NCBI GenBank assembly: GCA_003023565.1
Contig: PXSA01000032.1
Span: 64,501 to 128,500, forward strand
Length of the DNA stretch: 64,000 nt
Direction of reading: 5' to 3'
Origin: Halobacteriales archaeon QS_9_68_17
GTDB lineage: Archaea; Halobacteriota; Halobacteria; Halobacteriales; Natronoarchaeaceae
The position numbers and the translations under genes are program-made. Under the pieces are notes generated by a model that did not search any database, was not told the origin of the DNA, and worked only from the letters and a program-made list of their open reading frames with translations. Shown one piece after another: positions 32,900-56,365 of this stretch; the stretch's first letter is position 1, and each line of letters opens with the position of its first letter.

Positions 32900-33571
32900 A
32901 TGACCCGGGTTACGCTCGTCGGCACGCGCCTCGCGTCCGTCGGCGAGGAGTTCGTCTATCACGGGGAGGCCCCCGGTTGTGAGGGCTGTCCCTACCGCAG
33001 TCAGTGTCTCGGTCTCGATGACGGCGTCAGGTACCGCGTCACGGGCCTCCGCGACAACGCCCGGACGCTCGACTGCGCGGTCCACGACGACGGCGTCCGC
33101 GCCGTCGAGGTCGAACCCGCGTCGGTCCGCGCGAACGTCCCGTCGAAGAACGCCTACGCCGGGGGCAAGACGTCGCTCGCCGGCCCCTGCCCCCACGTCG
33201 AGTGTCCGAGCCACGAGTACTGCGTCGCCGACGGGGCCGGGGACGACGAGGAGCGACAGATCGAGGAGGTCGTCGGCGACCCGCGGACCGAGATAACCCA
33301 CTGGCCGCGCTGGCGGTTCATCGCCAGCGCGCGGGGAAGGGCAGGCGCTCGGAGCGTGCGCCGCCGACCGGCGGCGCTCGCGCAAACTGGCGGCCTGGAA
33401 CGAACGCCTCCGGCGTTCGTTGGAGGACATAGAAAGGGCGCAGCGAGGCCTGCCAAGGCCGAGCAAGGGCTTTCTTTTAAAGCGTCTCCAGTTTCTCCGC
33501 CGCGTACCCGAAGACGTTGGCGTAGCCGTACGGTGAGAGGAGGACGGGGTAGAAGTCGTCCTCGGCGGTGA
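32900..33571 (+). CDS. UPF0179 family protein with C-terminus replaced by a structured repeat element
   Basis: The first 133 codons encode a standard UPF0179 protein: RVTLVGTRLASVGEEFVYHG, a CEGCPYRSQC cysteine cluster, VPSKNAYAGGKTSLAGPCPH and ECPSHEYC. The family normally ends with roughly 20 more residues after VVGDP, including another cysteine. Here the frame runs from VVGDPRTEIT directly into the structured element that begins at 33299 and stays open to 33571, antisense to the next gene, without any plausible protein sequence. The protein is therefore truncated or given a foreign tail. The cysteines suggest metal binding; function unknown. ATG 32900 is preferred over TTG 32894. Confidence 0.7.
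   Translation: MTRVTLVGTRLASVGEEFVYHGEAPGCEGCPYRSQCLGLDDGVRYRVTGLRDNARTLDCAVHDDGVRAVEVEPASVRANVPSKNAYAGGKTSLAGPCPHVECPSHEYCVADGAGDDEERQIEEVVGDPRTEITHWPRWRFIASARGRAGARSVRRRPAALAQTGGLERTPPAFVGGHRKGAARPAKAEQGLSFKASPVSPPRTRRRWRSRTVRGGRGRSRPRR
33299..33476 (+). ncRNA. Structured repeat element, copy A (four hairpins; covarying with copy B)
   Basis: About 178 bases with four hairpins. I: a perfect 10-bp stem (33306-33315 with 33322-33331). II: an 8-bp stem with a GACC loop near 33359-33378. III: a 10-bp stem near 33399-33421. IV: a short stem near 33447-33461. It ends in GGGCTTTCTTTT. Copy B at 46409 shares the linkers almost exactly (GGGCAGGCGCTC, GCTCGCGCAAACTGGCGG, GGACATA-AAAGGGCG-AGCGAG) but has different stem sequences that still pair. 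The coding strand is unsure: the plus strand ends in a T run, while on the minus strand hairpin IV followed by CCCTTT could terminate the gene whose stop codon it touches. Confidence 0.6.
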
Positions 33572-34253
33572 GTTCCGCGCCGTCGGCCGCCGCGAACGGT
33601 TCGCCCGCGTCGACGCGTTCGAAGTTCTCCGCGAACACCTCGTACTCGTCGGCCGGTTCCTTGTCGATCGGGTAGAGCAGTTTGTACGCCGGGACCTCGC
33701 GCCCGATCGCGTCGCCGGGCAGGACGCCGGTCGCGGTCAGGAACTCCCGGACGATCCGGAGCGCGTTCTCCTCGGACTGGTCGGACCCCTGAAGCCCGGT
33801 CTCGACCTCTATCGCGTCGGTGGCGACGAAGATGCGTCCCTGGATGTACTCGCTGGTCTCGACGACGGCCGCGACGGACAGTCGCGGGCAGATATCGCGG
33901 ACCATATCGTCGATGCCGTCGACGACCGCGAAGGGTTCGGCGTACGACTGCGTCGAGTGGAGCGCGAGCGTCAGACAGCCCTCTATCTCGTCGGAGACGG
34001 CGGCCGCGAGGCGGCGCTCGTGTTCGTCGGCGTCGGAGTCCCCGGGGAACGAGCGGTTCAGGTCCGCCTCCAGATAGCGCTCGCCCGCCTCGATCGCCTC
34101 CTCGTTCGCGACCACGAACTTCACCGGCCGGTCGGCGGTGAGCGGTTCGTCGAGCAGTCGTTCGACGGCGCGCACGCCGCCCAGTTCGTCGCCGTGGATG
34201 CCGGCGACGACCGCTATCTCCGGCGTCCCTTCGCCGACCTGTTCGACTCGCAT
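33477..34253 (-). CDS. Succinylglutamate desuccinylase/aspartoacylase family zinc hydrolase
   Basis: A 258-residue M14-type (AstE/AspA) zinc-dependent hydrolase. The first zinc-ligand motif is GIHGDELGG near residue 19, the substrate-binding DLNRSFPG lies near residue 65, and the second zinc site is LALHSTQSY. These enzymes remove an acyl group from N-acyl amino acids or similar; the substrate is not known. The stop codon at 33477-33479 touches structured element A. The C-terminal beta domain (YPVLLSPYGYANVFGY) appears intact, so the element has not truncated this gene. Confidence 0.87.
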   Translation of the reverse strand: MRVEQVGEGTPEIAVVAGIHGDELGGVRAVERLLDEPLTADRPVKFVVANEEAIEAGERYLEADLNRSFPGDSDADEHERRLAAAVSDEIEGCLTLALHSTQSYAEPFAVVDGIDDMVRDICPRLSVAAVVETSEYIQGRIFVATDAIEVETGLQGSDQSEENALRIVREFLTATGVLPGDAIGREVPAYKLLYPIDKEPADEYEVFAENFERVDAGEPFAAADGAELTAEDDFYPVLLSPYGYANVFGYAAEKLETL

Positions 34254-46408: not shown

Positions 46409-46588
46409 CAGTGGCCGCGCTGGCGTCTCGTCGCCAGCGCGCGGGGGAGGGCAGGCGCTCAAAGCGTGCCTCCGCGACCGCGGAGGCTCGCGCAAACTGG
46501 CGGGCCTTAGCGAGAATCGCTTGCGATTCTCGCGGTGGACATAAAAAGGGCGAAGCGAGCGCCCGCCAGGCGCTCGCGAGGGCTTTTT
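46409..46588 (+). ncRNA. Structured repeat element, copy B (four hairpins; covarying with copy A)
   Basis: About 180 bases. Hairpin I has the same 10-bp stem as copy A with a different loop. Hairpin II has stem GCCTCCGC/GCGGAGGC, with the same GACC loop as copy A but four base pairs changed on both sides. Hairpin III is GCGAGAATCG/CGATTCTCGC, unrelated in sequence to that of copy A but equally well paired. Hairpin IV is GCGAGCGCC/GGCGCTCGC. The linkers are nearly identical to copy A, and the element ends in GGGCTTTTT at the stop codon of the minus-strand regulator gene. On the minus strand hairpin IV plus CGCCCTTTTT would make a good intrinsic-type terminator. Boundaries are accurate to a few bases. 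Confidence 0.6.
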
Positions 46589-47405
46589 AGTTGAGGATGG
46601 ACTGCGCGACGCTCGCGACCTGGTCGTCCTCGGCACCGCTAAGGCGCTCGTCGCCGAGTTTGAGACGCAGACGCGGGCGACCGACGTCGATCGGGACCTT
46701 CTCCGTGTCGAGGAGACCCATGTCTTCGAGCTTCGTCTTGGTGCGGGAGAACGTCGCCTTGGAGGCGATGCCCACGTCCTCGCCCCACTTGCTGATGTCG
46801 TACAGCAGGGCCTCGTTCTTCGCCGCGACGAGGAGGCTAATCGTCACTTCGTCGAGGCCGTCGCCGTCGCCGCGAGCGGTTTCGAGCGTGTCGAGGATGC
46901 CGGAGAAGTCCTCCTGAGCCTCGGGACTGATCTCCTCGGTGAGGGTCTCGCGGACCTTCGTGATCGGGGGCGTGCGGAGATGGAACTCGTCCGCCTCCTC
47001 CCACTGAGTGGCGTAGGTGTCGTAGGCGGCGTCGACGAACGCCTCGTCGGCAGCCGTGAGGCCGCCGACGTGGCTGCCGGCGTCGACGAACGCGACGACC
47101 GTCTCGCCCGTGACGAGGACCGAGTTCTGCCGTGCGTCCCCGGTCGTCCGGAGCGTCAGCGTGCCCGCGTCGATGAGGTCGGCCGTGTGACTGGCGACGA
47201 TGAAGTCGTCCATCACGCCCTTGAGCGTCCGTTCGTCCGCCAACATCCGGACCTCGGGGGTGTCGCCGTCGAACTCAGTCGCGACGCGGATCAGGTCTTC
47301 GATCGCGTCGGCGGACGGGTTGACGACGATGACTTCGTCGTCCGCGTCCGCCAGGACCTGTGTCAGGAGATCGCCTAGCTGCTTATCGAGTAAATTTGAG
47401 GTCAT
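46587..47405 (-). CDS. tbsP: TbsP-type transcriptional regulator
   Basis: A 272-residue regulator. The N-terminus MTSNLLDKQLGDLLTQVL and the DEVIVVNPSADAIEDLI, VRMLADERTLKGVMDDFIVA and GDGDGLDEVTISLLVAAK blocks match haloarchaeal TbsP, a protein reported to act with TrmB on central carbon genes such as glyceraldehyde-3-phosphate dehydrogenase. A C-terminal winged helix (VGIASKATFSRTKTKLEDMG) binds DNA. The frame is open to 47456 but 47405 is the standard start. A TAAAATTAAGTA box on the minus strand (47435-47446) lies 30-41 bases upstream. Name from memory. Confidence 0.8.
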   Translation of the reverse strand: MTSNLLDKQLGDLLTQVLADADDEVIVVNPSADAIEDLIRVATEFDGDTPEVRMLADERTLKGVMDDFIVASHTADLIDAGTLTLRTTGDARQNSVLVTGETVVAFVDAGSHVGGLTAADEAFVDAAYDTYATQWEEADEFHLRTPPITKVRETLTEEISPEAQEDFSGILDTLETARGDGDGLDEVTISLLVAAKNEALLYDISKWGEDVGIASKATFSRTKTKLEDMGLLDTEKVPIDVGRPRLRLKLGDERLSGAEDDQVASVAQSILN

Positions 47406-47650
47406 GCCTGTGTCGAGGAAAAGACGTGCGGCGTACTTAATTTTACTGGCCGTCACGAAAGCAAATCGTGGTCGTGTGCCGTCGAACCGATACTTCAGAG
47501 GGGGGTTTGCTAACGTTTCTCCGGTGGAATAGAGTGGAGCTGTATGTTACCGCGTGACAGTGTGTCACCGAGTACTCTCCACCGTTCCGTCCTCGCCCTG
47601 ACCCGGTCGCTGTCGGTCCGCCGCTCCAGCGACGGGGGTTACACCGGCCT

Positions 47651-55824: not shown

Positions 55825-56365
55825 ATGTCGTCTCAGACTGCGGCCGACGAGGATAGAGGAAGTCGCCACGCGGCGGCTGGTCGAGAAATTCTCGACCGAC
55901 AGTGACCACTCCGTAGACGGCGACCGGTTCTCGCGTGAGAGCGATGACGACCAGCGACCGGTGTCGGTGCGGTCCGACGGCGACGCGGTCGTGCTGGACG
56001 CCGATGGCGTCAGTCGCGAACTGACCAGAGATCAGGCCGGAGAGCTACGGGCGGCGCTCGGCGACGCGCTCACGGAGCGCCGCGAGTTCGTGCGCACGGT
56101 CGGCACGCGCCGGGACGACGGCGCGTACGTCGTCGAGCGCCGGGGCGCGGACTCCGCGGGGCACCGGAAAGTGTTCGAGGACTTCGCGGAGTGTCGCCGC
56201 CTGTACGACCGGCTTCCGGCCGAGTTCACGGCCGACGACGTGCGCCACGTCGGCGTAACCGGCGGTCGACGGCACATGCTCGTCTGGCACTTCGCCGAGC
56301 ACGACGCCTTCGACTGCGCGCTCGTCTCCCGGCAACCGCTCACGGCGAGAAAAGGGGGTGAGTAA
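55825..56365 (+). pseudogene. DUF7528-like protein, frameshift near the start
   Basis: A TTTATAC box (about 55791-55797) lies 28-34 bases before ATG 55825, marking a leaderless start. That ATG frame (MSSQTAADED) stops after 26 codons. From about 55853 another frame continues as EEVATRRLVEKFSTDSDH and into the conserved ADSAGHRKVFEDFAECRRLY, GVTGGRRHMLVWHFAEHDAF and ending. Removing one base near 55850-55853 joins them. If instead the gene starts at the in-frame GTG near 55962, it would be intact but lacking its first 45 residues. Function unknown. Confidence 0.6.

Follow-up and report, generated by a model that had tools for sequence, protein, structure and literature searches.

A family of four-hairpin, non-coding elements in salt-loving archaea that ends flush against neighboring genes

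Two structured sequences in the window (the whole stretch of 64,000 nucleotides analyzed here), which we call copies A and B, are members of an undescribed family of non-coding elements that span ~180 bases, fold into four hairpins and occur across salt-loving archaea. The element is found in about one third of the sampled genomes of the order, sits base-exactly at the borders of core genes, against either their ends or their promoters (aCPSF1, gyrB, PolD, IleRS and GDH), and is invisible to Rfam. We tentatively favor, as possible rather than probable, the reading that these are mobile or homing elements, directed to their target by the sequence at the right end.

Copy A occupies positions 33303..33474 of the + strand, running from a left end GGCC to a right end GGGCTTTC, as judged from its sequence and from the other copies in the genome. 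Copy B, delimited by sequence, occupies 46413..46587 of the same strand and runs from GGCC to GGGCTTTT. An earlier note on this DNA had placed both copies where they are but had drawn their limits (33299-33476 and 46409-46588) about 2-4 bases too wide. Its description of nearly identical linkers around stems II-IV that differ and yet remain paired can be read directly from the two copies, the common linkers being GGCC / CGGGG(A/G)AGGGCAGGCGCTC / GCTCGCGCAAACTGGCGG / GGACATANAAAGGGCG / AGGGCTTT. Hairpin I of copy A (33306..33331, +; CGCGCTGGCG / CGCCAGCGCG with the loop GTTCAT, from sequence and fold) has a stem identical to that of copy B and a different loop. Hairpin II reads CGCCGCC-GACC-GGCGGCG in copy A (33359..33376, +) and CCTCCGC-GACC-GCGGAGG in copy B (46469..46486, +), with four pairs changed on both sides and the GACC loop retained, as the note had said; this loop is present in 15 of the 23 distinct hairpin-II matches. 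Likewise, hairpin III differs in sequence and forms a 10 bp stem in each copy (AACGAACGCC-TCC-GGCGTTCGTT at 33399..33421, +, in A; GCGAGAATCG-CTTG-CGATTCTCGC at 46510..46533, +, in B). The conserved 3' core that closes the element is GACATAGAAAGGGCG-hairpin IV-AAGGGCTTTC in copy A (33426..33474, +), defined by an alignment of 43 core sequences (A1), pair counts and the covariance model built from those sequences (R1), and GACATAAAAAGGGCG-hairpin IV-GAGGGCTTTT in copy B (46538..46587, +), where it was found as a match to that model. Hairpin IV differs between the two copies, and stem IV of copy A contains a tandem A-G/G-A. Both copies fold better than shuffled sequences (z = -3.15 for A and -3.68 for B).

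Each copy ends against a gene that converges on it. The stop codon (33477-33479) of an AstE/AspA-like gene on the - strand (33477..34253; ORF, Pfam PF24827, L149) begins 2 bases past the end of copy A, and the stop codon TAA (46587-46589) of a TbsP transcriptional regulator gene, also on the - strand (46587..47456; ORF, Pfam and NCBIfam TbsP, L039), shares its position with the last base of copy B. Both sites are also occupied in Halostella pelagica. The gene to the left of copy A (32900..33297, +), which we take to be UPF0179-like, is missing the last ~20 codons of the H. pelagica version (PHDTCALDRDLTLVEFESEE*) and its reading frame continues into the element; rearrangement has therefore affected the left of copy A here. 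Elsewhere in the window, a leuA-Halobacteria RNA (RF03001) at 55842-55894 (+) is the sole non-tRNA Rfam match.

The two copies are far from alone. The earlier note had treated them as a two-copy element, a description that has to be abandoned: a BLAST-type search of the window's own Halostella genome (an assembly of 2.88 Mb in 42 contigs, 89% complete) returned ~15 full, partial or expanded copies, and the order holds hundreds. Four congeners gave 10-19 matches each, one of them apparently H. pelagica DL-M4, which has 16 copies. The covariance-model search of haloarchaeal genomes that the note had proposed also yielded many further copies, the 3' core (GACATNNAAAGGGCGA-hairpin-GAGGGCTTTC) being matched in 49 of 146 genomes of the order and in 19 of 56 genera, with up to 24 copies per genome in G035 (family f14, genus g16, the genus of Halalkalicoccus paucihalophilus). 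The note's remark that similar intergenic sequences occur in other haloarchaea is supported. An exact core pattern was present in 35 of 293 order genomes from 13 genera, where the reversed-pattern control gave zero throughout, and in none of 242 genomes drawn from the phylum outside the order. Named carriers include Natrinema, Haloterrigena, Halapricum, Halalkalicoccus, Halorussus, Halobium, Haloprofundus and Halegenticoccus. No match turned up in the plasmid, phage and viral collections to the extent that these were searched, and one hit to a Clostridia record (L136), inside a phage-like gene, was dismissed as chance. No named family corresponds to the element in Rfam 15, where no match reached the gathering threshold and none was credible at relaxed E-values, and we found no matching element in the open-access literature on Halostella repeats or on archaeal structured-RNA screens.

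Across genera, the order of parts is GGTGGCC, hairpin I, CGGGG(A)AGG.., hairpin II, ..GGCGG, hairpin III, CATNNAAAGGGCGA, hairpin IV and GAGGGCTTTC. The linkers are genus-typical, and outside the family of Halostella, sequence is shared in the 3' core (GGACATNNAAAGGGCG-hairpin-AGGGCTTT) alone. Hairpin III is closed by CCTGG..GGAC and holds either a four-base loop or a chain of extra hairpins, and the loop of hairpin IV is mostly GCCA. In genus g16 (Halalkalicoccus; L165-L201) and in L214 and L217, hairpin III has grown into an ordered chain of hairpin modules, and modules such as GCTGAAAAA..TTTTTCGCATGCCAAAAACG..CGTTTTTGAGC are common to Halostella and another family. Tandem core units occur at four loci (L167, L173, L191 and L198). 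Many copies (for instance, L010, L079 and L165) are preceded by degenerate GCGGT repeats (gcggtgcggt|GGCC), which may be part of the element's left end.

Compensatory changes in the stems exceed the controls, confirming that this is a real structured element. The 43-sequence alignment of the 3' core has a covariation score of 0.569, compared with 0.158 +/- 0.014 for shuffled alignments and at most 0.112 for slid partners. In this alignment the core's 5' arm and AGGGC show little or no variation, whereas both sides of every one of the nine stem-IV pairs vary. The 81 distinct hairpin-IV stems comprise 684 pairs, with 655 Watson-Crick, 6 G-T and 4 A-C. Tandem G-A/A-G mismatches (CGAG/CGAG) were seen on the + strand in 6 cases and tandem C-T in none, a hint, and the sole strand signal, in favor of the + strand. 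The stems differ mostly by replacement of whole cassettes. Identical hairpin-IV cassettes recur at unrelated sites and in unrelated species (114 distinct hairpins among 141 copies), and the stems found at one orthologous site in different congeners are unrelated. At three loci (L059, L131 and L145), the hairpin-IV loop is inverted, reading TTGGCA or TGGC rather than TGCCAA or GCCA, as if the hairpin had been flipped. Because covariation here partly reflects exchange of whole hairpins, it is not, taken alone, proof of a selected RNA, and strict pairing with almost no wobble also fits hairpin exchange or palindrome-correcting DNA synthesis. The earlier claim that such covariation is the mark of a selected RNA structure therefore stands as to the structure and its paired stems and was too strong as to selection, given the wholesale replacement of stems and the few G-T pairs.

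The most striking property of the family is where its right end falls. We read 147 distinct copies in full. In 91 of them (62%), no more than two bases (-2..+2) separate the right end from the stop codon of a convergent gene, compared with 0.08% of random anchors placed 30-250 bases away. In a further 30 copies the right end lies 36-47 bases before an ATG (random anchors, 1.3%). Haloarchaeal genes are often leaderless with a TATA box near -27, and this distance is the outer edge of the core promoter. Many of the remaining 26 copies are near misses, such as an offset of +4, codon-filter failures, frames ending inside the element, tandem units or gene-end duplications. Left ends are scattered, without a comparable edge. 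At offset -2 (38 copies), the element's own GA completes the stop codon TGA, and at four loci (L176, L211, L222 and L242) the frame of the convergent gene apparently enters the element, which supplies its last codons and stop. Profile searches identified the neighbors tested in this way as core genes, namely aCPSF1, GyrB, glutamate dehydrogenase, the PolD small subunit, TbsP, an IscA-type Fe-S protein, a PhoU-domain protein and a class I tRNA synthetase that we read as IleRS, and the same gene end is occupied in different families. Right flanks on the promoter side are conserved within Halalkalicoccus and not between genera. Genes on the left flank are only the orthologs of each site, and no autonomous copy with an inner or adjacent gene was seen among them.

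Comparison of orthologous sites showed that occupancy is patchy. At the aCPSF1 end in 30 genomes, intact, degenerate and empty states meet at one and the same base: the element is present in Halostella, Natrinema, Halalkalicoccus and one genome of family f6, while in others the site is empty or degenerate. At the end of an acyl-CoA dehydrogenase gene, the element lies in sense past the stop codon and is followed by a second copy of the last ~30-50 bases of the gene. This arrangement was found in 3 of 17 Halorussus genomes and in both genomes of genus g30; in the 14 remaining Halorussus genomes the gene end is single and the element absent. The same duplication occurs at L050 in G035 and at L143 in a MAG, and weakly at nuoD (L088). 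In most cases 1-4 bases of the right-hand gene end are mismatched with the intact gene. The idea that the duplicated end is systematically recoded, as in a gene drive, was suggested by L050 and found no support among congeners. Copies at convergent sites show no gene-end duplication, so the repeat is not a routine target-site duplication, and apart from those at the acyl-CoA dehydrogenase and nuoD sites we found no flanking direct repeats beyond background. The duplication appears only where insertion would otherwise remove the end of a gene.

On these grounds we infer that the element moves or homes and that its right flank specifies the target. The family would consist of miniature, non-coding, structured mobile elements whose folded + strand, as single-stranded RNA or DNA, could be recognized through the conserved linkers and the fixed 3' core by a putative trans-acting system. 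The sequence directly right of the 3' end would then set the site of insertion or re-insertion, much as a guide or a homology tag might. If the right flank sets the target in this way, the elements retained would be those whose tag is conserved, functional DNA and whose insertion spares the gene, which would leave them flush at a convergent stop codon, flush at a core promoter, or at a gene end with its end duplicated. The right-end rule, the loose left edge, patchy occupancy, gene-end duplications, tandem units and shared hairpin cassettes together suggest homing. Against it, no effector was found in the carrier genomes searched, the promoter-side right flanks differ between genera and would make a poor guide for long-range homing, and the right-hand gene-end copies carry the mismatches noted above. 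Most sites are also genus-wide and some cross-family, a pattern that fits old vertical inheritance too. The fuller proposal, of a new haloarchaeal homing element in which a folded RNA or DNA enters alleles programmed by its flank, settles at the edges of essential genes without breaking them and depends on an effector unrelated to TnpB, Y1 or reverse transcriptase, we hold with slightly greater reserve than homing itself. If the guide reading is true, the + strand RNA would end at GGGCUUUC or 15-30 bases inside the neighboring gene. The earlier note had offered an RNA gene, a terminator module or a mobile palindromic element; the last best fits the placement rule and the gene-end duplications, and a terminator role is still a candidate.

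That role belongs to a different reading, somewhat unlikely in our estimation, in which the element is an old, vertically inherited cis module, a bidirectional terminator or insulator lying flush against the unit it protects, kept at core genes and lost in many lineages. It would shield the 3' end of a gene from antisense reading, or a promoter from occlusion. Both core edges, CTTTC / CCCTTTTC, closely resemble the terminators of Haloferax volcanii, in which a T stretch is followed by C (PMC7237163). Orthologous genes carry the element in different genera and families, and each genus has its typical linkers, as though these were evolving together with a binding factor. However, such a module leaves unexplained why gene ends are duplicated at occupied sites only, why orientation to the neighboring gene is opposite in different classes of site, why a sharp right edge accompanies a loose left one and why there are tandem units; many left neighbors, moreover, point away from the element and have no use for a terminator on the + strand. 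A more doubtful account makes the element passive, a MITE- or REP-like sequence mobilized by a putative transposase without a guide, the sites now seen being the survivors of counter-selection. It is indeed multi-copy, palindromic, intergenic, patchy and non-coding, with fixed ends (GGCC on the left, GGGCTTTC on the right), yet neutral insertion would not fall <=2 bases from stop codons in 62% of copies, and a general target-site duplication is missing. Of the carrier genomes tested, the Y1 transposase (PF01797) is absent from 7 of 8, including the window's genome, H. pelagica and G035, reverse transcriptase (PF00078) is absent from 8 of 8, and no transposase or nuclease motif, and no tnpB, adjoins the copies. 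Since H. pelagica, by these profiles, has neither TnpB, Y1 nor reverse transcriptase, the IS200/IS605, REP/RAYT and retroelement machineries are removed as general answers.

That the covariation might come from hairpin-templated DNA correction together with hairpin swapping, leaving the folded form functionless, seems to us very improbable. The 96% Watson-Crick pairing, very few G-T pairs, whole-stem replacement and reversed hairpin-IV loops (TGCCAA/TTGGCA) are as this account would have them, but changes in the stems are not matched in the linkers or the 15-base 5' arm of the core, which are invariant from family to family, and the number and order of hairpins are preserved. A shade less probable again is an RNA-only member of the TnpB/omega-RNA class, in which the + strand RNA would be the scaffold, the right flank the 3' guide, and TnpB would act in trans. 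The layout of haloarchaeal omega-RNA is also a 3'-terminal hairpin followed by flanking sequence, and a 3' guide would be expected to select for just such flush placement against coding sequence. TnpB as partner was nevertheless rejected as a general mechanism: H. pelagica has no PF07282 protein despite its 16 copies, G035 (24 copies) and G040 have one each, and the ends of the genome's own TnpB elements, GGGGTAGTTCAC or TGTCAAAC, are unlike the element. The omega-RNA mechanism is thus largely refuted in general form, unless the H. pelagica copies are relics. The right ends of the genome's TnpB elements are of two kinds, a hairpin then GGGGTAGTTCAC (L093, L095 and L098) and a hairpin then GGAGGNTGTCAAAC (L094 and L099). 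Readings as H/ACA, kink-turn or attC, prompted by the ACA, the tandem G-A and the position after stop codons, were set aside, as the pocket, loop geometry and core-site sequences seem to us unsuitable.

Should flank-directed homing hold, the family would be a new and programmable system of DNA mobility in archaea. Should the element prove to be a cis module, it would define a new class of transcript-end or insulator elements in these organisms, attached among others to the gene of the archaeal termination factor aCPSF1. No known family fits the element. Like the omega-RNAs of TnpB (IS200/IS605) and the RNA-guided systems derived from them, it has a scaffold that ends in a hairpin followed by flanking DNA as a putative guide, whereas it has a different 3' end, no tnpB nearby and none in H. 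pelagica, and goes undetected by Rfam. Mapped terminators of Haloferax volcanii consist of a T-stretch then C (PMC7237163), and with haloarchaeal T-stretch or hairpin terminators of this sort the element shares its place shortly after genes and its combination of a hairpin with a short T run closed by C; unlike them, it is long and conserved, has four hairpins, occurs in a minority of genomes and also lies ahead of promoters and next to duplicated gene ends. The leuA-Halobacteria RNA (RF03001) and other haloarchaeal RNAs in Rfam are likewise structured non-coding sequences but match it in neither sequence nor structure. REP/BIME sequences, which depend on the Y1 transposase RAYT, are similarly dispersed, palindromic, non-coding and intergenic, often lie past stop codons and set short conserved motifs beside variable stems. 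In contrast to these, 7 of 8 carriers of our element that were tested are without a Y1 transposase, and the element has ~180 bases, four ordered hairpins and a right end that is base-exact at stop codons or promoters. The closest kind is that of REP-like structured intergenic repeats, from which the family is set apart by its lack of a known transposase, its architecture and its boundary rule.
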